From Methylobacterium brachythecii (lineage in GTDB: Bacteria > Pseudomonadota > Alphaproteobacteria > Rhizobiales > Beijerinckiaceae), in the NCBI RefSeq assembly GCF_014196345.1, contig NZ_JACIDN010000006.1:372001-436000 (forward strand): a DNA stretch of 64,000 nucleotides. Reading direction: 5' to 3'. Below the pieces are notes generated by a model, which did no database searches, was not told the origin of the DNA, and saw nothing but the letters and a program-made list of their open reading frames with translations. The position numbers and the translations under genes were made by a program. How positions within the stretch are numbered: the stretch's first letter is position 1; each line of letters opens with the position of its first letter. Of the stretch, positions 522 through 10,901 are shown one piece after another.

Positions 522-539
522 ATTAAGCTTCGACTTAAT
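522..539. promoter_or_regulatory. Inverted repeat at the LysR start, candidate LysR operator
   Basis: ATTAAG (522-527) and CTTAAT (534-539) form a perfect 6-bp inverted repeat around a 6-base spacer, in an otherwise GC-rich region. It lies in the divergent interval between the DSD1-type gene and the LysR gene and overlaps the LysR start codon. LysR proteins usually bind such dyads (T-N11-A type) to control themselves and the divergent neighbour. Binding is inferred. Confidence 0.5.
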
Positions 540-1482
540 GCTGACTACCGACGATCTCCGTTTCTTTGCCGCGATCGTGCGAGCGACGTCGCTCGCTGCC
601 GCTGCCCGGGATCTGAACGTGTCGCCGCCAGCCGTGACCCAGCGGCTCCGTGCGCTCGAAGAGCGGCTCCGGGTGCATCTGGTCGATCGGTCGGGACGAC
701 AACTCACACTGACCGACGAGGGCGAATTGCTCGCCGAACGCGGACGGCTCGTTCTCGAAGACCTGGAAGACCTCGACGACGCCATCGCGACCCGTCGTGG
801 CCAGGTCAGAGGACATCTGCGTGTCATTGCTTCGCTGGGCTTCGGGCGCCGGCACGTGGCACCTGTCGCCTCCCAATTCCAGGAGGATCATCCGGAACTG
901 AAGATCGATCTCATCCTTTCGGATCGCCTCGGCGGCATCCCGACCAGCGGCTGGGATCTGGCCGTTCACGTCGGCGAGCTCGACCACACTGCTTCGAGCC
1001 TGGTGATGCGACATCTCGCGCCGAACGAAAGGTGGGCCTGCGCAGCGCCTGACTATCTCCATCGAAACGGCACGCCCGGCGAGCCGGACGCGTTGCATGC
1101 CCACGCTTGCATCGCCCTTCGCGAAAACGACGAAGACGTGACCCTCTGGCGCTTCGGATCGATCCACGGCCTATCCGTGGGGAGCGTCCGGATCGAACCT
1201 CGCCTCTCCAGCAACGACGGAGACGTCGTTCGGGGCTGGGCGCTAGCTGGGCGCGGCATCATCGTCCGCTCCGAATGGGACGTGGCCGAGGATGTTCGCG
1301 AAGGACGTCTGGTCAGGGTGCTGCAAGAGTTCGCCCTCCCTGCCGCACCCGTCGTCGCTCTCCTGGGCTCGCGGCGACAGGCGCGCGCCGCTCGCACCGG
1401 CCGGTTCCTCGACGCGCTCCAGGCTGCCCTGGATCCGACGCCTTGGCGGCTGCCTCGCGGGACGACCGGAATGGATCGGTAA
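538..1482 (+). CDS. LysR-family transcriptional regulator
   Basis: A 314-residue protein of normal LysR length. The N-terminal winged helix-turn-helix spans about residues 1-60 (FFAAIVRATSLAAAARDLNV, then SPPAVTQRLRALEERL and a DRSGRQLTLTDEG wing). Residues about 90-300 are the periplasmic-binding-like effector domain, with the usual weak conservation. The gene diverges from the DSD1-type PLP enzyme and probably controls it in response to an amino-acid-related effector; that is inference from arrangement. It ends 7 bases before the convergent thioredoxin reductase gene. Confidence 0.9.
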   Translation: MLTTDDLRFFAAIVRATSLAAAARDLNVSPPAVTQRLRALEERLRVHLVDRSGRQLTLTDEGELLAERGRLVLEDLEDLDDAIATRRGQVRGHLRVIASLGFGRRHVAPVASQFQEDHPELKIDLILSDRLGGIPTSGWDLAVHVGELDHTASSLVMRHLAPNERWACAAPDYLHRNGTPGEPDALHAHACIALRENDEDVTLWRFGSIHGLSVGSVRIEPRLSSNDGDVVRGWALAGRGIIVRSEWDVAEDVREGRLVRVLQEFALPAAPVVALLGSRRQARAARTGRFLDALQAALDPTPWRLPRGTTGMDR

Positions 1483-1489
1483 AGGGAAA

Positions 1490-2494
1490 TCAGGCGTAGG
1501 CGCCGATCATCCCGCTCTCGCCCGCTTCCTCTCGTCGGATTGATGGATCCACCGAATGGTCGGCGAGAAACTTCTCAGCCTCAAGAGCTGCCATGCAGCC
1601 CATTCCCGCGGCAACGACCGCCTGCCGGTACACGCTTTCCGCGCAGTCGCCCGCCGCGAAGAAGCCCGGGACCGAGGTTCGTGTCGACCACGGCGATACT
1701 CGGATGTATCCGCCGGCCTCCATCTCGACCTGCTCTGCGAACAGCTTGGTCGCCGGGTCGTGGCCGATAGCGACGAAGACGCCGTCGGTGGGCAGCCCTC
1801 GGGTAGCGCCCGTTTTCGTGTCCTTCAGGCGCACGCCGGTCACGACCTTGACGGGCTCGTGCTGTCCGAGAATCTCGTCGATCACGTGGTTCCAGACGAC
1901 CTCGATCTTGGGATGGGCGAACAGCCGGTCTTGAAGGATCGGCTCGGCCCGGAATCGATCGCGCCGATGGATCACCGTGACCTTGGAGGCGAGGTTGGCG
2001 AGGTATAGGGCTTCTTCGACTGCGGTATTACCTCCACCGACGACGACGACATCCTTCCCGCGATAAAAGAAGCCGTCACAGGTCGCGCAAGCCGAGATCC
2101 CTGCGCCGTTGTATTCGAGTTCAGACGGCAGGCCGAGCCAGCGGGCCTGCGCGCCAGTCGCGGCAACGAGTGTCTCGGCGAGATAGGTGTCTCCGCTATC
2201 GCCGACCGCCTTGAACGGACGCGCTCCGAGGTCGACGGAAACGATCGTGTCGTAGACGATCCGGGTACCGACATGCTCGGCTTGTTCGCGCATCTGTTCG
2301 ACCAGATCGGGTCCCTGGATCGCTCGAGCGAAGCCGGGATAGTTCTCGACCTCGGTGGTAATCGTGAGTTGGCCGCCGGGCTGCAGACCGGTGACCAGCA
2401 TCGGCTGCAGGTTTGCCCGTGCGCCGTAGATGCCCGCCGTATAGCCGGCGGGCCCGGCGCCGATGATCAGCAGCTTGGTATGATGGGCCGTCAT
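1490..2494 (-). CDS. trxB: Thioredoxin reductase (NADPH, FAD)
   Basis: A 334-residue protein matching low-molecular-weight thioredoxin reductases end to end. It begins with an FAD-binding GAGPAGYTAGIYGARA motif, has the redox-active CATC at about residues 138-141 (SACATCDGFF), an NADPH-binding GGGNTAVEEALYL motif and the C-terminal FAD motif GFFAAGDCAE. It reduces a thioredoxin CxxC with NADPH. The start overlaps the GntR stop as ATGA (2491-2494), so the two are co-transcribed. This looks like a dedicated extra copy rather than the housekeeping gene: it sits opposite a thioredoxin-domain protein (4784-6229) behind a shared regulatory region, which suggests it reduces that protein. Confidence 0.93.
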   Translation of the reverse strand: MTAHHTKLLIIGAGPAGYTAGIYGARANLQPMLVTGLQPGGQLTITTEVENYPGFARAIQGPDLVEQMREQAEHVGTRIVYDTIVSVDLGARPFKAVGDSGDTYLAETLVAATGAQARWLGLPSELEYNGAGISACATCDGFFYRGKDVVVVGGGNTAVEEALYLANLASKVTVIHRRDRFRAEPILQDRLFAHPKIEVVWNHVIDEILGQHEPVKVVTGVRLKDTKTGATRGLPTDGVFVAIGHDPATKLFAEQVEMEAGGYIRVSPWSTRTSVPGFFAAGDCAESVYRQAVVAAGMGCMAALEAEKFLADHSVDPSIRREEAGESGMIGAYA

Positions 2495-3189
2495 GTCCGC
2501 TCCGGCGCTTGCGATCGACGGCGCGAGCGCCCTGCGACCTTGGTCTGTTGAAACAGGAAATCGGTTGCGAGCTTCTCGACGATGCGCACGTGTGTGGAGA
2601 GCTGTGCCTCCGCATCGACGAGGCGGCCCGTCACGGCGAGATCGATGATCCTGCGATGCTGCTCGACTGCGGCGCGCATCCTCGAAATCTCGCGCGGCAA
2701 CCGATGGCGGATCGCGCCGACCTGGTCGGCAATCCCGCGATAGGCCCTCGTCAGGAGTGGGTTGGCTGCTGCCCCGACCAGTGCCTCATGGAACGCAGTG
2801 TCCATCACATCGGCCCGGGCAAGATCTCCGTCTTCGAGTGCCAGAGCACCGCCTGAGAGAGGAATGGAGACGGCTGCGACCAGCGCATCCGCATCGCTTG
2901 CAGCAGCGATCCGCAAGGCTCCCAATTCGAGGACTGCCCGCATCTCGCAGATGCGGCGCAGATCGGTCGCATCGAGATCCATCACGAACGTCCCGCTCTG
3001 AGGTCGGACCACCACGAGGTCCTCCTGCGCGAGACGGGAGAGAGCCTCGCGAACGGGTGTGCGGCTGATCTCCAGTTCCTCCGCGAGCACGCGGTCCGAA
3101 AGACGTGCGCCGAAGGCGAAACGTCCGGTGATGATGGCGTCTCGAATGATCGCCTCGGCGCGGAGGCTGAGTTTGCTGTCGTCGGTCAT
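2491..3189 (-). CDS. GntR-family regulator, FCD (FadR-like) effector domain
   Basis: A 232-residue protein. The N-terminal winged helix (residues about 10-75) contains the GntR signature RLSDRVLAEELEISRTPVRE. The C-terminal helical part (about 85-210) has the FCD pattern of spaced Asp/His residues that bind a metal and often a carboxylate ligand. It heads a two-gene operon with trxB and is divergent from the symporter/UGSC operon. Two palindromes in the 99-base interval are probably its sites, one touching its own start codon. I see no Shine-Dalgarno before the ATG at 3189, so a leaderless transcript is possible. The ligand may be the carboxylate carried by the neighbouring symporter. Confidence 0.9.
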   Translation of the reverse strand: MTDDSKLSLRAEAIIRDAIITGRFAFGARLSDRVLAEELEISRTPVREALSRLAQEDLVVVRPQSGTFVMDLDATDLRRICEMRAVLELGALRIAAASDADALVAAVSIPLSGGALALEDGDLARADVMDTAFHEALVGAAANPLLTRAYRGIADQVGAIRHRLPREISRMRAAVEQHRRIIDLAVTGRLVDAEAQLSTHVRIVEKLATDFLFQQTKVAGRSRRRSQAPERT

Positions 3190-3205
3190 AACTGGAATAT
3201 CAATT
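3190..3205. promoter_or_regulatory. Candidate GntR operator, copy 1
   Basis: The 16-mer AACTGGAATATCAATT is an imperfect palindrome related to the perfect-armed copy at 3231-3246. It begins one base upstream of the GntR start codon, so a bound regulator would block its own expression. FadR/FCD-type GntR proteins commonly bind short TGG-N-CCA-like dyads. Assignment is from position and similarity between the copies. Confidence 0.6.
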
Positions 3206-3230
3206 ACCCCATCTTGCGCGTCAAGTGGCT

Positions 3231-3246
3231 AACTGGCATATCAGTT
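3231..3246. promoter_or_regulatory. Candidate GntR operator, copy 2
   Basis: AACTGGCATATCAGTT has 5-bp arms AACTG and CAGTT that pair perfectly. It lies 41 bases (close to four helical turns) from copy 1, measured start to start, which would place two dimers on one DNA face. It is 43 bases upstream of the symporter start, a position expected to overlap or neighbour that promoter. Confidence 0.65.
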
Positions 3247-3288
3247 GCACGGGACGAAACGCTCTGAATCAAAAAGCGGGGTCACCCA

Positions 3289-4671
3289 GTGCCAAACGCC
3301 ATTCGACGCAAATTCTCCAACCTGACCGTCCAGGTCATCGCTGCCCTTTGTTTAGGCGCAGCAATAGGCATTCTGCTGCCCAATTTCGCAGTCTCACTGC
3401 AAGGTTTGAGCGACGTCTTCATCAAGCTTATCAAGATGGTCATCCCCCCGATCGCCTTTCTGACGATCGTCATCGGCATCGCGGAGGTGAGCGATCTCAA
3501 GAAGGTCGGAAAAGTAGGCGGAAGCGCCCTTCTATACTTCGAGGTCGCGTCCACCCTCGCGCTCGTCATCGGGATGATCGTCGTCAACGTCGTCAGGCCC
3601 GGCGACGGCTTCGACCGCGCCCGGGTCGGCGCTCAGGCGGTCGACATCTCGAAGTACACCAGCACGCCGGCCGGCCAGTACATGACGGAGATCCTGACTC
3701 ACATCGTGCCGGACAACGCGGTCGCCGCCTTCGCCAAAGGCGATCTTCTGCAGATCGTGTTCTTCGCCATCGTGTTCGGTTGCGCGGCGGTGCTCATCGG
3801 AGAGCGTGCGAAACCGTTCGTAGCAGTGGCCCAGGCCGCCAACGACATCCTGTTTCAGCTCGTCTCGATGATCATGCGCTTGGCACCCGTCGGCGCTTTC
3901 GGCGCGATGGCCTTCACGGTCGGCAAGTACGGGATCGGTTCGATCCTCGTCCTGGGGCACATGCTCCTGTGCGTCTACATCACCTGTGTCCTGTTCGTCT
4001 GCGTCGTGCTGGGCGCGATCGCCCGCGCCTACGGGTTCAGCATCTTCAGGTTCATCCGCTACGTCGGCGAGGAAGTGCTGATCGTACTCGGCACCTGCTC
4101 TTCCGAGAGCGTGCTGCCGCGGCTCATGACGAAGCTCAACCGTCTCGGCTGTTCCAAATCCAGCGTCGGTCTCGTCCTGCCGGTCGGCTATTCGTTCAAC
4201 GCCGACGGCACCGCGATCTATCTCTCGATGGCGTCGCTGTTCATCGCTCAGGCCTACGGCATCGACATGAGCTTCAGCCAGCAGGTCGGTCTGCTGCTGC
4301 TTCTGCTCGTGACGTCGAAGGGATCGGGTTCGGTCGCCGGTTCCGGCTTCGTCGTCCTGGCGGCAACGCTCTCGGCGACGCACATCCTGCCTGTCGAGGG
4401 GCTGCTCCTGATCATCGGTATCGATCGCTTCATGTCCGAGGCGCGGTCCGTCACGAACATCATCGGCAACAGCCTCGCGACGGTCATCGTGGCGAAGATG
4501 AGCGGTGAGTTCGATCCGGCCGCTGCCGAAGCCGCCTACGCCGAACGGTTCGGTCCGAACATGCCGTTTCAGCAGAACCGTCCTCTCTGGGCCTCGAAGC
4601 CGGCCGCGTCCGCGTCAGGGCAACCTCCAATTCACGATGCCGCAGTGGTCCTGGCCGGCAAGGAGCCGTGA
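3289..4671 (+). CDS. Dicarboxylate/amino acid:cation symporter (DAACS/DctA family)
   Basis: A 460-residue inner-membrane protein starting at GTG. It shows the DAACS layout: N-terminal membrane helices, IKLIKMVIPPIAFLTIVIGI at about residues 43-62, the serine-rich reentrant loop region GTCSSESVLPRLM, the substrate-site stretch GYSFNADGTAIYLSMASLFI (about 304-323) and SKGSGSVAGSGFVVLAATL. DctA proteins import C4-dicarboxylates with protons or sodium. Here the gene is first in an operon with two UGSC-type proteins and is divergent from a GntR/trxB operon, so its substrate may be an unusual carboxylate that those proteins process. The family is certain; the substrate is not. Confidence 0.92.
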   Translation: MPNAIRRKFSNLTVQVIAALCLGAAIGILLPNFAVSLQGLSDVFIKLIKMVIPPIAFLTIVIGIAEVSDLKKVGKVGGSALLYFEVASTLALVIGMIVVNVVRPGDGFDRARVGAQAVDISKYTSTPAGQYMTEILTHIVPDNAVAAFAKGDLLQIVFFAIVFGCAAVLIGERAKPFVAVAQAANDILFQLVSMIMRLAPVGAFGAMAFTVGKYGIGSILVLGHMLLCVYITCVLFVCVVLGAIARAYGFSIFRFIRYVGEEVLIVLGTCSSESVLPRLMTKLNRLGCSKSSVGLVLPVGYSFNADGTAIYLSMASLFIAQAYGIDMSFSQQVGLLLLLLVTSKGSGSVAGSGFVVLAATLSATHILPVEGLLLIIGIDRFMSEARSVTNIIGNSLATVIVAKMSGEFDPAAAEAAYAERFGPNMPFQQNRPLWASKPAASASGQPPIHDAAVVLAGKEP

Positions 4672-4734
4672 CCAGCAGGTCGATCGAAGACAAAGCCGAC
4701 AACCGGCCTGATCTTCGACGCTCGGCACCGATCC

Positions 4735-4758
4735 GAAATCTCGATTTTTCAAGATTTC
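4735..4758 (+). promoter_or_regulatory. Intergenic hairpin between symporter and UGSC genes
   Basis: GAAATCT (4735-4741) and AGATTTC (4752-4758) can form a 7-bp stem with a 10-base loop containing a T run. It sits in the 112-base gap between the symporter stop and the next start. It may stabilise or partly terminate the message, adjusting the ratio of transporter to enzyme. Only the structure is seen. Confidence 0.4.
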
Positions 4759-4783
4759 CACGCCTTCAAACATGGAGAAAAAG

Positions 4784-6229
4784 ATGAGTACCAGCGCAGA
4801 ACCCGGCGATAGCTTCGTCGCATTCGTTAAACAGGGTTGCGAAACGTGTCAGATGCTCGACGATGTGCTCGGGCGCATCGCGGGCCAATACCCGATTACC
4901 GTCTACACTCAGGACGATCCGAGCTTCCCTACCAGCGTTTCGGCGATCGATGACACCTCTCTCGAAAAGTCCTTCTCGTTCGACGTCGAGGCCGTTCCGA
5001 CCTTGGTCCGCGTGAAGAACGGTCGCGAGGTGTCGCGGACGTTCGGTTGGCATCGCGACGACTGGCAGGCGATGACCGGCCTCGGAGACCTCGGCTCGAA
5101 CCTGCCCCTCATGCGACCGGGATGCGGCTCGAAATCTCGAGAGCCCGGCGTGTACGATGCTCTGCGGGCCAAGTACGGCAAGCTCGACTTCAAATCCCGG
5201 CCGATCGTTCTCGGTGAATGGGACGACGAGTTCGAAGCGACCTACGATCGCGGCTGGAGCGATGGCCTTCCGGTCGTGCCGCCGACCGACACCCGCATCC
5301 TTCGGATGCTCGACGGCACCTCGCGTCGTTCCGATGAAATCATCGGAAACGTGCCGCCCAATCTCGCGCCGATCACGGTCGAGAAGATCGCGATCAATGC
5401 CGTGATGGCGGGCTGCCGCCCCGAGTACATGCCGGTGATCCTGACCGCCCTCGAGGCCGCGCTCGATCCCCTGTTCACGATGCACGGTCTTCTCTGCACG
5501 ACCTGCTTCTCGGGCCCGATCATCGTGGTGAACGGACCGATCGCCCGCGAAATCGGTATGAATTCGGGTATCAACTGCCTCGGTCAGGGCAATCGCGCCA
5601 ACGCCACCATCGGCCGTGCCGTACAGCTGATCATCCGCAACGTCGGCGGCGGCCGTCCGGGTGAGCTGGATCGGGCGGTTCTCGGCGGACCCGGAAAGTA
5701 CACGTTCTGTTTCGCGGAGGACGAGTCGGATCCGACCTGGCAGACCCTCGCCTCGTCCCGCGGCATCGACCCCGGGAAGAATGCGGTGACGCTGTTCCAG
5801 GGCGACGGCATCCAGGGTTTCCTCGATCAGCGGTCTCGGACACCCGAAGAGCTGACGAAGTCGCTTGCGATGTCTCTCCTTGCGGTGGGCCACTACAAGC
5901 TCTGCGAGTTCACGAACGCGATGCTCGTCCTCGTACCTGAACACTACGGGATCTTCCGTGACGCCGGATGGGACCGCGACCGCATCACGAGCGAGCTCCA
6001 TAAGGCCATGGTCAGGCCGGGCAAGGATGTGATCCAGGGCGCTCACGGAGTCGGCGAAGGCATTGCCGTCGGTCGCCGGGACGAGATGGTCAACAAGTTC
6101 TGGCCGGAGGGTCTCCTGATCGTTCAGGCAGGAGGCAAGGCGGGATTGTTCTCCGCCATCTGCGCCGGGTGGACCGGCGGTCGTTTCCGCGAGGAATCCA
6201 AGCCCGTAACCAAGGAGATCGTGCTGTGA
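4784..6229 (+). CDS. Thioredoxin-domain / UGSC-associated protein of unknown function
   Basis: About 481 residues from the ATG at 4784, which has GGAG six bases upstream; an ATG at 4772 lacks one. Residues about 1-100 form a thioredoxin fold with active-site CETC (about 19-22) and a cis-proline region EAVPTLVRVKNG. A cysteine segment PGCGSKSREPG follows, then a large domain starting GWSDGLPVVPPTDTRILRML and containing LLCTTCFSGPIIVVNGPIA and glycine-rich GQGNRANATIG. I recall this larger domain as found with UGSC-family (seleno)proteins, but no reaction is established. The gene overlaps the next as GTGA. With trxB across the promoter, an NADPH to TrxB to thioredoxin-domain electron path is plausible. 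Family naming is from memory. Confidence 0.7.
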   Translation: MSTSAEPGDSFVAFVKQGCETCQMLDDVLGRIAGQYPITVYTQDDPSFPTSVSAIDDTSLEKSFSFDVEAVPTLVRVKNGREVSRTFGWHRDDWQAMTGLGDLGSNLPLMRPGCGSKSREPGVYDALRAKYGKLDFKSRPIVLGEWDDEFEATYDRGWSDGLPVVPPTDTRILRMLDGTSRRSDEIIGNVPPNLAPITVEKIAINAVMAGCRPEYMPVILTALEAALDPLFTMHGLLCTTCFSGPIIVVNGPIAREIGMNSGINCLGQGNRANATIGRAVQLIIRNVGGGRPGELDRAVLGGPGKYTFCFAEDESDPTWQTLASSRGIDPGKNAVTLFQGDGIQGFLDQRSRTPEELTKSLAMSLLAVGHYKLCEFTNAMLVLVPEHYGIFRDAGWDRDRITSELHKAMVRPGKDVIQGAHGVGEGIAVGRRDEMVNKFWPEGLLIVQAGGKAGLFSAICAGWTGGRFREESKPVTKEIVL

Positions 6230-6780
6230 AAGACGGAATCATGCTTCGCGACCCCACTGCCGAGACCTCGTCGGCTCTCCGTGATCGCGTCCCTCCCTTC
6301 GACACGTTGGAAGACAGGACAGTCGCCCTGATGGACATCGGCAAGATGCGCGGCGACGAGTTCATCGACCGCCTCGAACAGCTGTGCAGCGAGCGTGGCA
6401 TCTCGACCCGGCGCTACAAGAAGCCGACGAACACGCGGGTCGCCCCGCGCGAGATGATCAACGATATCGCCGACAACTGTCAGGCCGTCATCATCGCGCT
6501 GTCAGACTGCGGCTCGTGCACCTCGTGCTCGACCCACGACCTGAACGATCTGGACAAGAAGGGATTGGCCGGCGTCAGCGTTCTGACGACCGAGTTCGAA
6601 CAGGCTTTCGAATCCCAGAAGTCGTCGATCGGCCTCGACGCTGCGTCGGTCTACGTCGAGCATCCGTTGCAGAACAAGACAACGGAAGAACTTCATCGCT
6701 CGGCCGAAAGTGCCTTCGACGACATCCTTCGGGCAATCAGCATTGAAGTCCCGTCGCTGCACACCTCCAAGGCGGCGTAG
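6226..6780 (+). CDS. UGSC-family protein, cysteine form of a selenoprotein family
   Basis: About 184 residues from a GTG at 6226 that overlaps the previous stop by four bases, with AAGGAG eight bases upstream. The core reads SDCGSCTSCSTHDLNDLDKK, with the CGSC cysteines near residues 95 and 98; in selenoprotein members the first cysteine is selenocysteine (UGSC). The C-terminal part (YVEHPLQNKTTEELHRSAES) also fits the family. UGSC proteins were described among microbial selenoproteins and are presumed redox enzymes of unknown substrate. Here it is the last gene of the symporter / thioredoxin-UGSC operon, so it probably works in a complex or relay with the preceding protein. Confidence 0.8.
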   Translation: MKDGIMLRDPTAETSSALRDRVPPFDTLEDRTVALMDIGKMRGDEFIDRLEQLCSERGISTRRYKKPTNTRVAPREMINDIADNCQAVIIALSDCGSCTSCSTHDLNDLDKKGLAGVSVLTTEFEQAFESQKSSIGLDAASVYVEHPLQNKTTEELHRSAESAFDDILRAISIEVPSLHTSKAA

Positions 6781-7115: not shown

Positions 7116-9356
7116 TCAGCCCATCAACCGATCCAGCGTGATCGGCAATTCGCGCACCCGTATGCCGGTGGCATGGAACACCGCGTTAGCAATCGCGCCA
7201 GCCGTGCCGGTGATGCTGATTTCGCCGACGCCCTTGATCCCAAGCGCGTTGACGTGCGGGTCGTGCTCCTCGACCAGAATGGCCTCGACCGAGGGCACGT
7301 CGGCGTTCACGGGCACGTGGTACTCGGCGAGGCTCGCGTTCATCGGCCGGCCGGAGCGCTTGTCCATCACCGTGTGCTCGTGGAGTGCGAAGGACAGGCC
7401 CCAGATCATCCCGCCGTAATACTGGCTGCGCACCAGCCGCGGATTGATGATGCGGCCGGCCGCGAAGGCGCCGACGAGACGGGTGACGCGGACCTGCCCG
7501 AGATCGGGATCGACCTTCGCCTCGGCGAAGACCGCGCCGTGGGCATGCATCGCGTAGGCCTCTCGCGCGGCCTTGTCGCTGCCGGCGTTGCCCTGACCTT
7601 CGATGCGCTCGCGGCCGGCCCGCTTGAGGATGTCGGAAAAGCTCTCGCCGCGGCGCTCATCGTCCCGACGCAGTAGCCAGCCGTCGCGGGCGATCGTACC
7701 GGCGTTGCCGGCCCCGAAGAGCGGCGAGCGCTCGTCCTGCGTGGCTAGCTCCGAGAGCTGCGCGATGATCGCGGAGCCGGCCTTGTGGATCGCATCGCCC
7801 GCCGTCGCGGTATGGGCCGAGCCTCCTGCGATCCCAGCGTTCGGCAGGTCGGAGGAGCCCATCCGGAACTCGACGGCGTCGAGATCGAGCCCGAGCGAAT
7901 CCGCGGCGATCTGAGCAAGCGCCGTCCAGGCGCCCTGGCCCATGTCGTGGGCGCCGATCAGCATGCTCGCGCTGCCATCCGCGCGCAGCTCCGCGCTCGC
8001 CTGCGCCTGCATCATCAAAGCGGGGAAGGTCGCGGTCCCGACGCCCCAGCCGACCAGCAGGCCGTCTTGATCGCGCATCGAGCGCGGCTCGGGCTTACGT
8101 GCGGACCAGCCGAAGGCCTCGGCGCCCTGGCGATAGCACTCGCGAAGCGCCTTCGAAGAGAATGGCTTGCCGGAAAGCGGCTCCTTCTCGGCGTAGTTCT
8201 TCAAGCGGAATTCCAGAGGATCCATGCCGCAGGCTTCCGCCATCTCGTCGATGGCGCTCTCCAGAGCCGCGCTGCCAGAGGCCTCGCCCGGCGCGCGCAT
8301 GAACATCGGCGTGCCGATGTCGAGCCGTACAGCCCGGTGCGTCGCCGAGATGTTGGGGCTCGCATAGAGCGTGTGCGAGACGCCGCCGCTCGGCTCGAAG
8401 AAATCGTCGAAGGTGCTCGAAGCGGTGAGCGTGCAATGCTCCAGCGCGGTGAGCGTCCCATCGCCTTTGGTGCCCAGGCGAAAGCTCTGGCGCGTCTGCG
8501 CCCGGTGCCCGACAGGGCCGAACATCTGCTCGCGCCGAAGCACCAGCTTAACCGGCCGGTCGACCAGCTTCGCCGCCATGACGCCGAGCACCTGCGGCCC
8601 GGCCGGCGTGCCCTTCGAGCCGAAGCCGCCGCCGAGGAATGGGCTGCGGATGTGGATCTTCTTCGGGTCGATCCCGAACAAGCCGGCGAGCCGCCCTTGA
8701 GCGATCGAGAGCCCTTGTGTCGGCATATCGATCGAGAGGCCGCCGTCCTTCCACTCGGCAACGATGGCGTGGGGCTCCATCGCGTTGTGGTACTGCGACG
8801 CCGTCTCGTAGGTCGTTGCGATGCGCGTCTCGGCCTCGCCGAGCCCGGCCTCGACATCGCCCTTGCTGGCATCTGGCGGCTCGCCGACGCCGACGGAGGG
8901 CGGCACGATCGGCTTCTCCGCATCGAGCCCGACGCGGGCGGCCTCCACGTTGTAGCGCGGCGCGAGGAGCGCGACGCCTTCGGTTGCGGCTTCCAGTGTG
9001 TCCGCGATCACCACGGCGATCGGCTGGTTGGCGTAGCGGACGGCCGAATCCTGGAGGAGATCGAGCCGAAAGGTGAAGGGGGTGTCCTTCTTGTCGGGAT
9101 GCATAGCGAGCTTGGGCGCGTTCTCCGGCGTCATGACATCGACGACGCCAGGATGCGCACGCGCCGCCGCCACATCGAGATGCGTGACGCGGCCGCGCGC
9201 GATCGTGCTCACTGCCGTCACGGCGTGCAGGAGGCCTTCGGGATGGTTGTCGGCGGCGTAGGTCGCGCCGCCTGTGACCTTGAGCAGCCCGTCGCGCCGC
9301 GTGAGCGGTTGGCCGATGCTGGAGCCGTGGCGGATGCGTGCGGCGTTCTCAGGCAT
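7116..9356 (-). CDS. Xanthine dehydrogenase-family molybdopterin subunit (PaoC-type aldehyde oxidoreductase)
   Basis: A 746-residue catalytic subunit. The N-terminal aldehyde oxidase/xanthine dehydrogenase a/b hammerhead domain covers about residues 15-130 (TRRDGLLKVTGGATYAAD). Molybdopterin-binding segments follow: FLGGGFGSKG, FMRAPGEASG, DMGQGAWTALAQIAADSLG and the C-terminal GIKGVGEIS, whose glutamate is the usual active-site base. The enzyme hydroxylates aldehydes or N-heterocycles using water. Length and three-gene order match E. coli PaoABC more than large xanthine dehydrogenases. It overlaps the FAD subunit by 8 bases. No XdhC/PaoD-type maturation gene lies beside it, so sulfuration of the cofactor must be served from elsewhere. 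Confidence 0.9.
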   Translation of the reverse strand: MPENAARIRHGSSIGQPLTRRDGLLKVTGGATYAADNHPEGLLHAVTAVSTIARGRVTHLDVAAARAHPGVVDVMTPENAPKLAMHPDKKDTPFTFRLDLLQDSAVRYANQPIAVVIADTLEAATEGVALLAPRYNVEAARVGLDAEKPIVPPSVGVGEPPDASKGDVEAGLGEAETRIATTYETASQYHNAMEPHAIVAEWKDGGLSIDMPTQGLSIAQGRLAGLFGIDPKKIHIRSPFLGGGFGSKGTPAGPQVLGVMAAKLVDRPVKLVLRREQMFGPVGHRAQTRQSFRLGTKGDGTLTALEHCTLTASSTFDDFFEPSGGVSHTLYASPNISATHRAVRLDIGTPMFMRAPGEASGSAALESAIDEMAEACGMDPLEFRLKNYAEKEPLSGKPFSSKALRECYRQGAEAFGWSARKPEPRSMRDQDGLLVGWGVGTATFPALMMQAQASAELRADGSASMLIGAHDMGQGAWTALAQIAADSLGLDLDAVEFRMGSSDLPNAGIAGGSAHTATAGDAIHKAGSAIIAQLSELATQDERSPLFGAGNAGTIARDGWLLRRDDERRGESFSDILKRAGRERIEGQGNAGSDKAAREAYAMHAHGAVFAEAKVDPDLGQVRVTRLVGAFAAGRIINPRLVRSQYYGGMIWGLSFALHEHTVMDKRSGRPMNASLAEYHVPVNADVPSVEAILVEEHDPHVNALGIKGVGEISITGTAGAIANAVFHATGIRVRELPITLDRLMG

Positions 9357-10407
9357 GGATCGCGCTCCCTTGAGCGGCCTGGAAGACGGAGGCAGGCAAG
9401 GCGGGCACGCGCTCGGGTGTGCCGGCGGCGGCGAGGGTGAGCGCGCGCACGATCAGGCGACGGGCGAGCTCGATCTTGAAGGCGTTGTCGCCCGACGGCT
9501 TGGCCGCCGCGAGCGCGGCATCGGCTGCCTTGCGGTAGCTAGCCTCGTCCGGCGCGGCGCCGTCGAGTATCGCCTCGGCTTCGCGAGCCCGCCAGGGCTT
9601 CAACGCGACGCCGCCGAGCGCGACGCGCGCCTCCGCGACGCGATCACCTTCGAGGTGAAGTGCTGCTGCGACTGAGACCAATGCGAAGGCGTAGGAGGTC
9701 CGCTCCCGGATCTTCACGTAGCGGCTCCGCGCGGCAAAGGCGGCGGCCTCGACCGGCAGGCGCACAGCGACGATCAGATCGCCCGGCTCCAGCACGGTCT
9801 CGCGCTGTGGTTCGTCGCCCGGCAGCCGATGGAAGGCTTCGAGCGGCACCTCGCGCCGGCCGGCCTTGCCATCGATCTCGACCACCGCGTCGAGCGCGAC
9901 AAGCGGCACGCACAAATCGGACGGATGCGTCGCGACGCAATGCTCGCTCCAGCCCACCACCGCGCTGGTGCGGTTGGCGCCGTGAAGTGCGTCGCAACCG
10001 GCGCCGGGTTCGCGTTTATTGCAGGCACTGGCGGGGTCGTAGAAGTACGCACAGCGCGTGCGCTGCATCAGGTTGCCAGCCGTGGTCGCCGCGTTGCGCA
10101 GTTGTGCTGAAGCACCTGCGAGCACCGCTTCCGCGACGCTCGGAAAGGTCTTCGAGAATTCTTGGTCGTAGGCGAGGTCGGTGTTGCGCACGAGCGCGCC
10201 GATCCGCACCGCGCCGCCCTCCAATCGCTCGATGCGGTCGAGGCCCGGCAGATGCGTCGTGTCGACGAGGCGGGTGGGCTTCGTGATCCCGCCCTTCATC
10301 AGGTCGAGCAGGTTCGTACCTGCGCCAAGATAAGTCGCGCCCGGCTCGGAGGCGGCCGCGACGGCCTCGGCGACGGAGGCGGGGCGGATGTACTCGAAGC
10401 GGTTCAT
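9349..10407 (-). CDS. Xanthine dehydrogenase-family FAD subunit with 4Fe-4S insertion (PaoB-type)
   Basis: About 352 residues starting at the ATG at 10407 (MNRFEYIRPASVAEAVAAAS); a longer upstream reading frame is unsupported extension into the iron-sulfur gene. The FAD-binding part includes YLGAGTNLLDLMKGGI and NAATTAGNLMQRTRCAYFYD. A cysteine-bearing insertion follows (ASACNKREPGAGCDAL, then HCVATHPSDLCVPL), the feature that in PaoB binds an extra [4Fe-4S] cluster. The CO-dehydrogenase flavoprotein C-terminal domain fills about residues 230-340. It passes electrons between the 2Fe-2S subunit and the final acceptor. Start and stop overlap the neighbours (ATGA with the upstream gene). Confidence 0.9.
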   Translation of the reverse strand: MNRFEYIRPASVAEAVAAASEPGATYLGAGTNLLDLMKGGITKPTRLVDTTHLPGLDRIERLEGGAVRIGALVRNTDLAYDQEFSKTFPSVAEAVLAGASAQLRNAATTAGNLMQRTRCAYFYDPASACNKREPGAGCDALHGANRTSAVVGWSEHCVATHPSDLCVPLVALDAVVEIDGKAGRREVPLEAFHRLPGDEPQRETVLEPGDLIVAVRLPVEAAAFAARSRYVKIRERTSYAFALVSVAAALHLEGDRVAEARVALGGVALKPWRAREAEAILDGAAPDEASYRKAADAALAAAKPSGDNAFKIELARRLIVRALTLAAAGTPERVPALPASVFQAAQGSAIHA

Positions 10408-10901
10408 GCGGCGCCCCCGTTCATGCGGGAAGGCATGTTCTTCTGCGCTTCGATCACGGCCTCGGTGATGCCGCGATAGGCGCCGCATCGACAGAGGTTG
10501 CCGCTCATCGCCTCGCGGATGCGCTCGGGATCGTCGCCGGCATCGCCCTCGTGGATCAGCCCGACCGCACTCATGATCTGGCCGGGCGTACAGAACCCGC
10601 ACTGAAAGCCGTCATGCTCGATGAAGGCGGCCTGGAGTGGATGCAGAGTGCCGTTCTCGGCGAGCCCCTCAATCGTCAACACCTCGGCCCCGTCGAGACT
10701 GACGGCGAGCGCGAGGCAGGAATTGATGCGCCGCCCGTTCACCAGCACGGTGCATGCTCCGCACTGGCCGCGGTCGCAGCCCTTCTTTGAGCCGGTGAGG
10801 TGGAGCCGCTCGCGCAGGAGGTCGAGAAGAGTGACCCGCGGATCGTCGAGATTGATCGCGCGGCGCTGTCCGTTGATGGTCAACGCGATGGGGAAGCTCA
10901 T
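10404..10901 (-). CDS. Xanthine dehydrogenase-family 2Fe-2S subunit (PaoA-type)
   Basis: About 165 residues from the ATG at 10901, which has a purine-rich GCGGGA upstream; the ATG at 10940 has no ribosome site. The plant-type 2Fe-2S domain shows KKGCDRGQCGACTVLVNG, and the C-terminal helical domain holds the second cluster motif FCTPGQIM with NLCRCGAYRGIT. It is the first gene of the three-gene operon and carries electrons from the molybdenum centre to the FAD subunit. E. coli PaoA has a Tat signal; none is seen here, so this enzyme is probably cytoplasmic. Confidence 0.92.
   Translation of the reverse strand: MSFPIALTINGQRRAINLDDPRVTLLDLLRERLHLTGSKKGCDRGQCGACTVLVNGRRINSCLALAVSLDGAEVLTIEGLAENGTLHPLQAAFIEHDGFQCGFCTPGQIMSAVGLIHEGDAGDDPERIREAMSGNLCRCGAYRGITEAVIEAQKNMPSRMNGGAA

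Follow-up and report, generated by a model that had tools for sequence, protein, structure and literature searches.

Gene content and putative regulatory region of the cluster

The window analysed here, a 64-kb stretch of the 5.40-Mb genome of Methylobacterium brachythecii (G000:C6:372001-436000), carries near its left end a cluster of five genes that includes a Cys-form member of the UGSC protein family and its partner, a fusion of a thioredoxin domain with a domain designated U1 (Trx-U1). The gene identities proposed in an earlier note on this DNA were borne out by profile matches or motifs, except for a second UGSC-type protein. On the reverse strand are trxB (1490-2494; TIGR01292, 403 bits against a cut-off of 343; active site CATC) and a GntR/FCD regulator (2491-3189; PF00392, 69.9 bits, and PF07729, 66 bits, both above cut-off). 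Divergent from these, on the forward strand, are an SDF-family symporter of the DctA subfamily (3289-4671; PF00375, 360 bits; NF002461, 564 bits against a cut-off of 513; NF009587, 483 bits, below its cut-off of 570), the 485-aa Trx-U1 fusion (4772-6229; thioredoxin domain approximately residues 8-118, U1 domain approximately residues 120-485) and the UGSC gene (6226-6780). The unit had been placed at 2491-6780, an interval that takes in the other genes and leaves most of trxB outside.

The gntR stop and the trxB start overlap by 4 nt on one strand, in keeping with the claim that regulator and reductase share a transcription unit. An identical overlap joins the Trx-U1 stop to a GTG start of the UGSC gene at 6226, which is likelier than the start at 6169 given previously and is matched by the same 4-nt overlap in many relatives. 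Both pairs are very probably co-transcribed and translationally coupled. Two operator-like sites had been reported beside the regulator, and a pattern scan found two palindromes between the divergent units: AACTG-N6-CAATT with one mismatch (3190-3205; AACTGGAATATCAATT) and the perfect AACTG-N6-CAGTT (3231-3246; AACTGGCATATCAGTT), spaced 41 bp. The pattern AACTG-N6-CARTT has just these two matches on both strands of the window, and they may serve as operators.

The UGSC protein and its relation to GrdB

The UGSC protein passed the gathering score of PF24696 (109.3 bits against 25) and carries the catalytic-type motif DCGSCTSC, of the pattern [U/C]GSC-x2-C, with its CGSC codons at 6508-6519 on the forward strand. 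It fell just under the cut-off of NF041046 (119.7 bits against 125), against which a related protein at locus L196 scored 134. The predicted structure (pLDDT 91.7) has five strands in an alternating beta/alpha arrangement, and C95 begins one of its helices; the closest structures in the PDB were weak hits (E ~2e-4, TM ~0.44) and mostly flavodoxin-like, and a sequence search of the PDB gave one chance hit (E 0.75). The model does not support the thioredoxin fold suggested in PMC2398784. Only one UGSC-type protein is present, not two as had been thought; no UGSC match was obtained for the 485-aa protein, and its U1 profile showed no resemblance to that of UGSC.

Profile searches linked UGSC to glycine reductase. 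The window's protein gave weak NCBIfam hits to GrdH, GrdF and GrdB around its motif (E 0.002-0.03), and the UGSC protein of L196 matched TIGR01917 (GrdB; E 1.7e-6) at positions 333-407, which surround the selenocysteine (Sec) site. The Pfam GrdB model ends at the Sec codon; the comparison set comprised 46 sequences translated through UGA, both GrdB C-terminal regions and short GrdB-like proteins, from 46 of 49 PF07355 loci (L134, L139 and L168 were excluded, the match ending far from the Sec codon or the contig ending). Aligned by hhalign with 64 UGSC proteins, this set gave a probability of 89.5 (P 1.9e-6, score 45.6) with C95 placed on the Sec of GrdB, whereas the reversed set gave 12.5 and 30 column shuffles 18.1 at most. 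As judged by profile alignment, UGSC and the selenocysteine domain of GrdB are thus remote homologues; one full-length GrdB among the sequences found has the motif UGSCNRC, as against UGSCTSC in the UGSC family. The accessible literature on UGSC, a scope that takes in parts of papers and no subscription papers, gives no function and states no relation to GrdB.

Many short GrdB-like proteins were also seen at L127-L174, in alphaproteobacterial and other genomes. They mostly have an in-frame UGA (PVUPxC motifs), match just the final portion of PF07355, a model that stops directly ahead of the Sec codon, and look like a second stand-alone GrdB-domain family.

U1 and the distribution of the U1-UGSC pair

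The predicted structure of Trx-U1 is confident (pLDDT 92.6). Thioredoxins or thioredoxin-fold proteins made up most of the 50 PDB hits listed, and the thioredoxin domain scored 16.3 bits against Pfam PF00085, under the cut-off of 23.5. Its redox motif CETC (residues 23-26; 4838-4849, forward strand) has a cysteine pair that does not vary across the 21 rows of alignment A3 and is kept in at least 90% of alignment A5. No relative of the U1 domain was found in Pfam or NCBIfam searches, nor in the PDB by a fold search that used the whole chain and listed hits to the thioredoxin part. A UGSC fusion with a domain termed 'Unknown_1' appears in the accessible part of PMC2398784, and this domain could possibly be U1. 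Residues D164, N264, R282 and E316 of U1 showed no exception (one gap) in 35 sequences and N290 was kept in 34, while N264 varied in more distant rows of alignment A2. The stretches LLCTTCFSG and GINC were suggestive of a pyruvoyl subunit of the GrdE/PrdA type. This candidate was rejected for GrdE, the subunit covered by the profile comparison, which showed no relation, and the cysteines of these stretches are unconserved.

Trx-U1 homologues were found in 38 of 385 genomes of the class. A scan of named genomes confirmed at least 570 relatives, which belong to several classes and phyla and do not exceed 65% identity (76% in one fragment); the best 80 were kept as the named loci. Neighbours were tested by BLAST of the window proteins against all open reading frames of these loci, just 30 of which held the full 10 kb on both sides, so that some neighbours could be missed. 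UGSC accompanied Trx-U1 at 79 of the 80, within 600 bp at 77, which is beyond chance; it lay farther off at L053 (4.9 kb) and L095 (3.7 kb) and was divergent at L103 and L106. No other general neighbour emerged from a survey in which genes were called with a codon-usage caller: a thiolase came next in nine loci, selA next in seven, and an alpha/beta hydrolase directly before in seven. The thiolase, acetyl-CoA acetyltransferase-like and on the same strand, marks a gammaproteobacterial clade of nine loci. The selA-like gene directly after Trx-U1/UGSC was followed, by eye, by a selB-like gene in several loci, and a Paracoccus plasmid (L222) has annotated selA and selB genes that flank U1/UGSC from opposite sides within 9 kb. 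It is as if the U1/UGSC pair travelled with the Sec machinery at such loci.

The Sec/Cys codon was typed at 78 of the named loci (77 by a profile-based count, L102 by eye) and was TGA at 75, TGC at two (L032 and L043, the latter Elioraea rosea) and TAG at L102; the contig of L054 ends before the codon, and L090, which ends at a contig edge, has no UGSC. At class level TGA was found at 28 of 29 loci, that of the window being the single TGC. A hairpin after the UGA was detected with a mean z of -2.37 at 65 TGA loci from strict-pattern typing versus -0.39 in 134 control stretches (mononucleotide shuffles; Mann-Whitney P 1.8e-19). The UGSC gene of the window (z -0.74) has neither an in-frame UGA nor a clear hairpin, and the other two TGC loci gave -1.3 and -1.8. 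In a midpoint-rooted tree built from 72 Trx-U1 sequences, the window's protein grouped with those of L032 and L043 in one clade (support 99/96) inside Sec sequences, a position that would fit a single replacement of Sec by Cys. SelA had no match in the genomes of the window and L032 and gave weak partial hits only in that of L043 (33.7 bits or less); it was full-length in all nine TGA-locus genomes tested. Cys-form UGSC occurs in other branches too (L196, L198-L200, L221, L223, L224, L227 and L228), and some of the genomes concerned (G474, G500 and G549) do carry SelA.

The TAG codon of L102 (11656-11658), in Candidatus Blastococcus massiliensis, has intact flanks (ALAD-TAG-GSCTSC) and the same kind of hairpin after it. 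This looks like a UAG-encoded selenocysteine, and UAG recoding of Sec has reportedly been found in the actinobacterial group to which this organism belongs.

Thioredoxin reductase genes accompany the pair in other branches. Within the window's own family, L196 holds U1, UGSC and a TrxB-like gene, a UGSC-U1 fusion stands with a TrxB-like gene at L197 (Sec, selA adjacent), L198 and L199 (Cys, CSTC motif), and L200 has the fusion alone. A TIGR01292 search of 42 alphaproteobacterial genomes (38 from the class search and four family mates) gave 30 homologues below the cut-off, 18 of them within ~5 kb of UGSC/U1, where a rough estimate of chance expects fewer than one. The other 12 comprise two at ~6 kb from Trx-U1, five opened and found without U1/UGSC, and five unopened. 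L201-L217, L219 and L220 were picked around TrxB-like hits, so that the 18 of 30 counts TrxB homologues beside UGSC/U1 and not the reverse. The usual alphaproteobacterial set is UGSC, U1a and U1b, with UGSC either separate or fused to U1a. The TrxB-like gene follows this set at nine loci (one, L215, without the UGSC end), precedes it at four, is divergent at L216 and lies 4 kb off at L201. Over the aligned stretch CAxCD was kept in all 19 linked TrxB-like proteins seen; among the unlinked ones three long proteins (L210, L219 and L220) lacked it and two short ones had CPxCD. A luciferase-like monooxygenase cluster was also noticed at five of the 15 loci, TRAP/tricarboxylate-transporter genes at six, and ABC permeases or amidohydrolases elsewhere.

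A protein search of 72,556 plasmids matched 24 records, without any match that spanned more than 80% of the query; eight of these records were opened. UGSC stood beside U1 in seven (the exception being Vibrio, L225), and three had a trxB homologue 46-57% identical to that of the window. The Arthrobacter ERGS1:01 plasmid carries trxB, trxA, U1 and UGSC (TGC) in a row; that of Roseovarius THAF8 has TRAP genes, a CoA-transferase, LysR, U1, UGSC (TGT) and trxB (57% identical); and that of Variovorax SRS16 has trxB (56% identical), tricarboxylate-transporter receptor genes, SDR, U1 and UGSC (TGC). From its gene order the Arthrobacter row is the unfused counterpart of TrxB, Trx-U1 and UGSC. Because thioredoxin is fused to U1 in the window and adjacent to it in Arthrobacter, a Rosetta-stone argument suggests that thioredoxin acts with U1. 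Cys-form UGSC reaches the haloarchaea, on plasmids of Natrinema and Halorientalis.

The cluster is bordered by a LysR gene to the left of trxB (538-1482, forward strand) and, to the right of the UGSC gene, by a gene for a molybdenum hydroxylase subunit (7116-9356, reverse strand). The latter is PaoC/xanthine dehydrogenase-like and with an overlapping upstream frame occupies 7116-10602. The Trx-U1 gene was absent from the nine other genomes of the genus listed, and U1 homologues were present in five of 199 genomes sampled from the family, the window's included, a sixth hit covering the thioredoxin part only. Six genus mates have kept the molybdenum hydroxylase gene (74-76% identical), but the adjoining 6-10 kb that were opened lack all five genes. 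The LysR flank did not turn up beside that gene in the genus mates, and the junction itself was therefore not located. Between 1 and 7 kb the GC content is 60-66%, rising to 68-70% between 7 and 10 kb; since it drops back to 64-66% at 10-12 kb, it proves little by itself. The five-gene cluster was probably acquired horizontally.

Proposed mechanism, alternatives and known systems

From what can be read directly (the genes, palindromes and motifs, the U1-UGSC pair, the recurrence of TrxB/TrxA and the kinship of UGSC with GrdB) we infer repression, substrate, electron direction and chemistry as follows. The cluster would be an acquired catabolic unit in which electrons pass from NADPH through TrxB and thioredoxin (and U1) to UGSC, so that an imported carboxylate is attacked reductively, much as in glycine reductase; this reading is given about an even chance as a whole. 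Expression would probably be substrate-induced, under a GntR/FCD repressor bound at the two palindromes and responsive to an organic acid, which the symporter would import. U1 would bind and position the substrate through D164, N264, R282 and E316, and C95 of UGSC would attack it, leaving a thio-adduct or a Cys95/Cys98 disulfide. Either C98 or the fused thioredoxin (C23/C26) would then resolve this state and restore the UGSC dithiol, and the co-regulated TrxB would recharge the thioredoxin from NADPH. By analogy with glycine reductase the net, NADPH-dependent reaction would reductively strip a small carboxylate of an alpha-substituent (N, S or halogen), or else reduce it. The electron path is the likeliest part of this scheme and is considered probable; reductive bond cleavage as the chemistry falls a little short of an even prospect, and a C4-type substrate is rather doubtful. 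That TrxB and thioredoxin feed UGSC had been suggested before. The TrxB/TrxA partners found elsewhere and the UGSC-GrdB match strengthen the idea, and so does the count of the cluster's trxB as one of two genuine trxB genes in the genome; the uniqueness of the exact layout weakens it.

A number of observations weigh against the catabolic reading. The linkage of all five genes, predicted for other genomes, did not appear: the exact arrangement is so far found only in this genome, and the five-gene set as a conserved unit was rejected, being absent from all 80 other named loci. DctA was near Trx-U1 at none of these 80 loci, nor was a DctA-type gene present at any of the 80 + 20 + 8 other U1/UGSC loci tested. 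Genuine TrxB was likewise near Trx-U1 at 0/80, with four weak TrxB-like proteins of 33-34% identity, and GntR at 1/80, namely L043, where it is divergent from Trx-U1 and Cys-form UGSC, followed by a MaoC-like gene. Since the Trx-fused branch has, bar that one GntR, no such neighbours, trxB, DctA and GntR may be local recruits. No PF00085 match was found at the operons in 19 genomes with TrxB-like/UGSC/U1 operons, thioredoxins being present elsewhere in them; the Arthrobacter trxA was detected as a positive control, and a thioredoxin as divergent as that of the window (16.3 bits) could have escaped. From this absence at the operons, with the Arthrobacter trxA found, it would follow that branches obtain their reductant by different routes. 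An initial profile test, made with a single GrdB sequence cut before Sec, gave no match to UGSC. C215 and C313 of U1 are not universal, and U1 against 13 members of PF09338 (the GrdE family) gave a probability of 0.1 and a score of 12.7, with shuffles reaching 25. TRAP/TTT genes are rare in the Trx-fused branch (4/80 loci), and gene neighbours vary widely between clades, so that no single substrate is indicated.

Such transport genes were nevertheless seen near U1/UGSC at six of 20 alphaproteobacterial and four of eight plasmid loci, against none of 11 control loci. Four of these loci had supplied the queries; with such loci left out, the counts are 4/18 and 2/6. These neighbours fit organic-acid substrates and name none. 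Phosphosulfolactate-synthase-like genes lie near U1-UGSC on the plasmids L221 (Natrinema) and L224 (Arthrobacter). The sulfonate substrate at which they hint was rejected, such a gene being present at 0/80 and 0/20 other U1 loci.

The pair might instead form a module for redox stress or thiol repair, in which UGSC is peroxidase-like or reduces disulfides or selenylsulfides, U1 is a scaffold and the symporter is incidental. The thioredoxin domain fused to U1 would suit such a role, and the accessible part of PMC2398784 describes the selenoprotein families of an ocean survey as mostly thiol oxidoreductases or of thioredoxin-like fold. However, the UGSC model is flavodoxin-like and neither thioredoxin- nor peroxiredoxin-like, the best profile relation of UGSC is to a substrate reductase, and uptake systems and CoA-transferases are neighbours in several loci; this explanation is judged unlikely. 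Also unlikely is that TrxB is a bystander, a spare reductase in the GntR regulon, with Trx-U1/UGSC fed by the housekeeping thioredoxin system. A second canonical trxB above the TIGR01292 cut-off does exist (on G000:C3, 65% identical to that of the cluster), which together with the lack of genuine TrxB at the 80 named loci speaks for it, but the trxB-trxA-U1-UGSC and U1-UGSC-trxB arrays elsewhere and the TrxB-like genes that neighbour UGSC/U1 (18 of 30) do not. UGSC/U1 could also be a thiol-dependent lyase, isomerase or dehalogenase that thioredoxin merely keeps reduced. GrdB-type chemistry starts with a nucleophilic attack, according to the accessible part of PMC10838667, and plasmid loci have lyase-like neighbours (aconitase X, CoA ester lyase, PEP-mutase family); yet the dedicated TrxB/Trx partners of several branches suggest a stoichiometric use of electrons, and non-redox chemistry is regarded as improbable.

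UGSC is among the commonest selenoproteins of aquatic metagenomes, with 8.2% of selenoprotein genes according to the accessible part of PMC9402790. The tie to the GrdB active site, the U1 partner and the TrxB/TrxA partners turn a 'hypothetical selenoprotein' into an assay that could be reconstituted, and the Cys form in the window offers a practical entry to the family, since it needs no selenium machinery and should be expressible in ordinary E. coli. A wider proposal, judged less likely than not, is offered tentatively: UGSC and U1 may represent a class of reductive enzymes that has not been described before, driven by NADPH and thioredoxin and spread over bacteria and haloarchaea, of which many are probably aerobes. 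It would be a counterpart of glycine and proline reductases with a separate Sec/Cys domain and U1 in place of GrdE. Its electrons would come from a TrxB-like enzyme dedicated to it, from a separate TrxA or from a U1-fused thioredoxin, and it would reductively cleave C-N, C-S or C-halogen bonds of various organic acids taken up by the cell.

Among known systems, the UGSC family (PF24696/NF041046) shares with the cluster the PF24696 match, the [U/C]GSC-x2-C motif and the U1 partner domain, and the cluster differs in having Cys for Sec, no clear hairpin, a thioredoxin-fused partner and a score slightly below the NF041046 cut-off. The symporter and regulator resemble the DctA C4-dicarboxylate symporter and GntR/FCD regulators in family membership, although a DctA-type gene is peculiar to this locus among the U1/UGSC loci tested. 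The selenoproteins of glycine, betaine and D-proline reductase (GrdB, GrdH and PrdB) differ from UGSC, which at ~184 aa has no N-terminal GrdB part; U1 is not GrdE-like, and PF07355, for full-length GrdB, has no match in the window's genome (G000). Common to both are the remotely homologous Sec domain with its aligned catalytic residue and the presence of thioredoxin and TrxB genes, and in glycine reductase electrons pass from NADPH through thioredoxin reductase, thioredoxin and GrdA to GrdB, as given in the accessible part of PMC3091704. The fluoroacetate reductase farACEB of Cloacibacillus, as described in the accessible part of PMC10838667, combines a GrdB/GrdE pair with a transporter and is proposed to cleave a C-F bond. 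It differs in belonging to an anaerobe and in its Sec, GrdE homologue, radical SAM partner and MFS antiporter, but like the cluster described here it joins a GrdB-like protein, a second subunit and a carboxylate transporter in a laterally spread unit for which a reductive cleavage, there of C-F, has been proposed.

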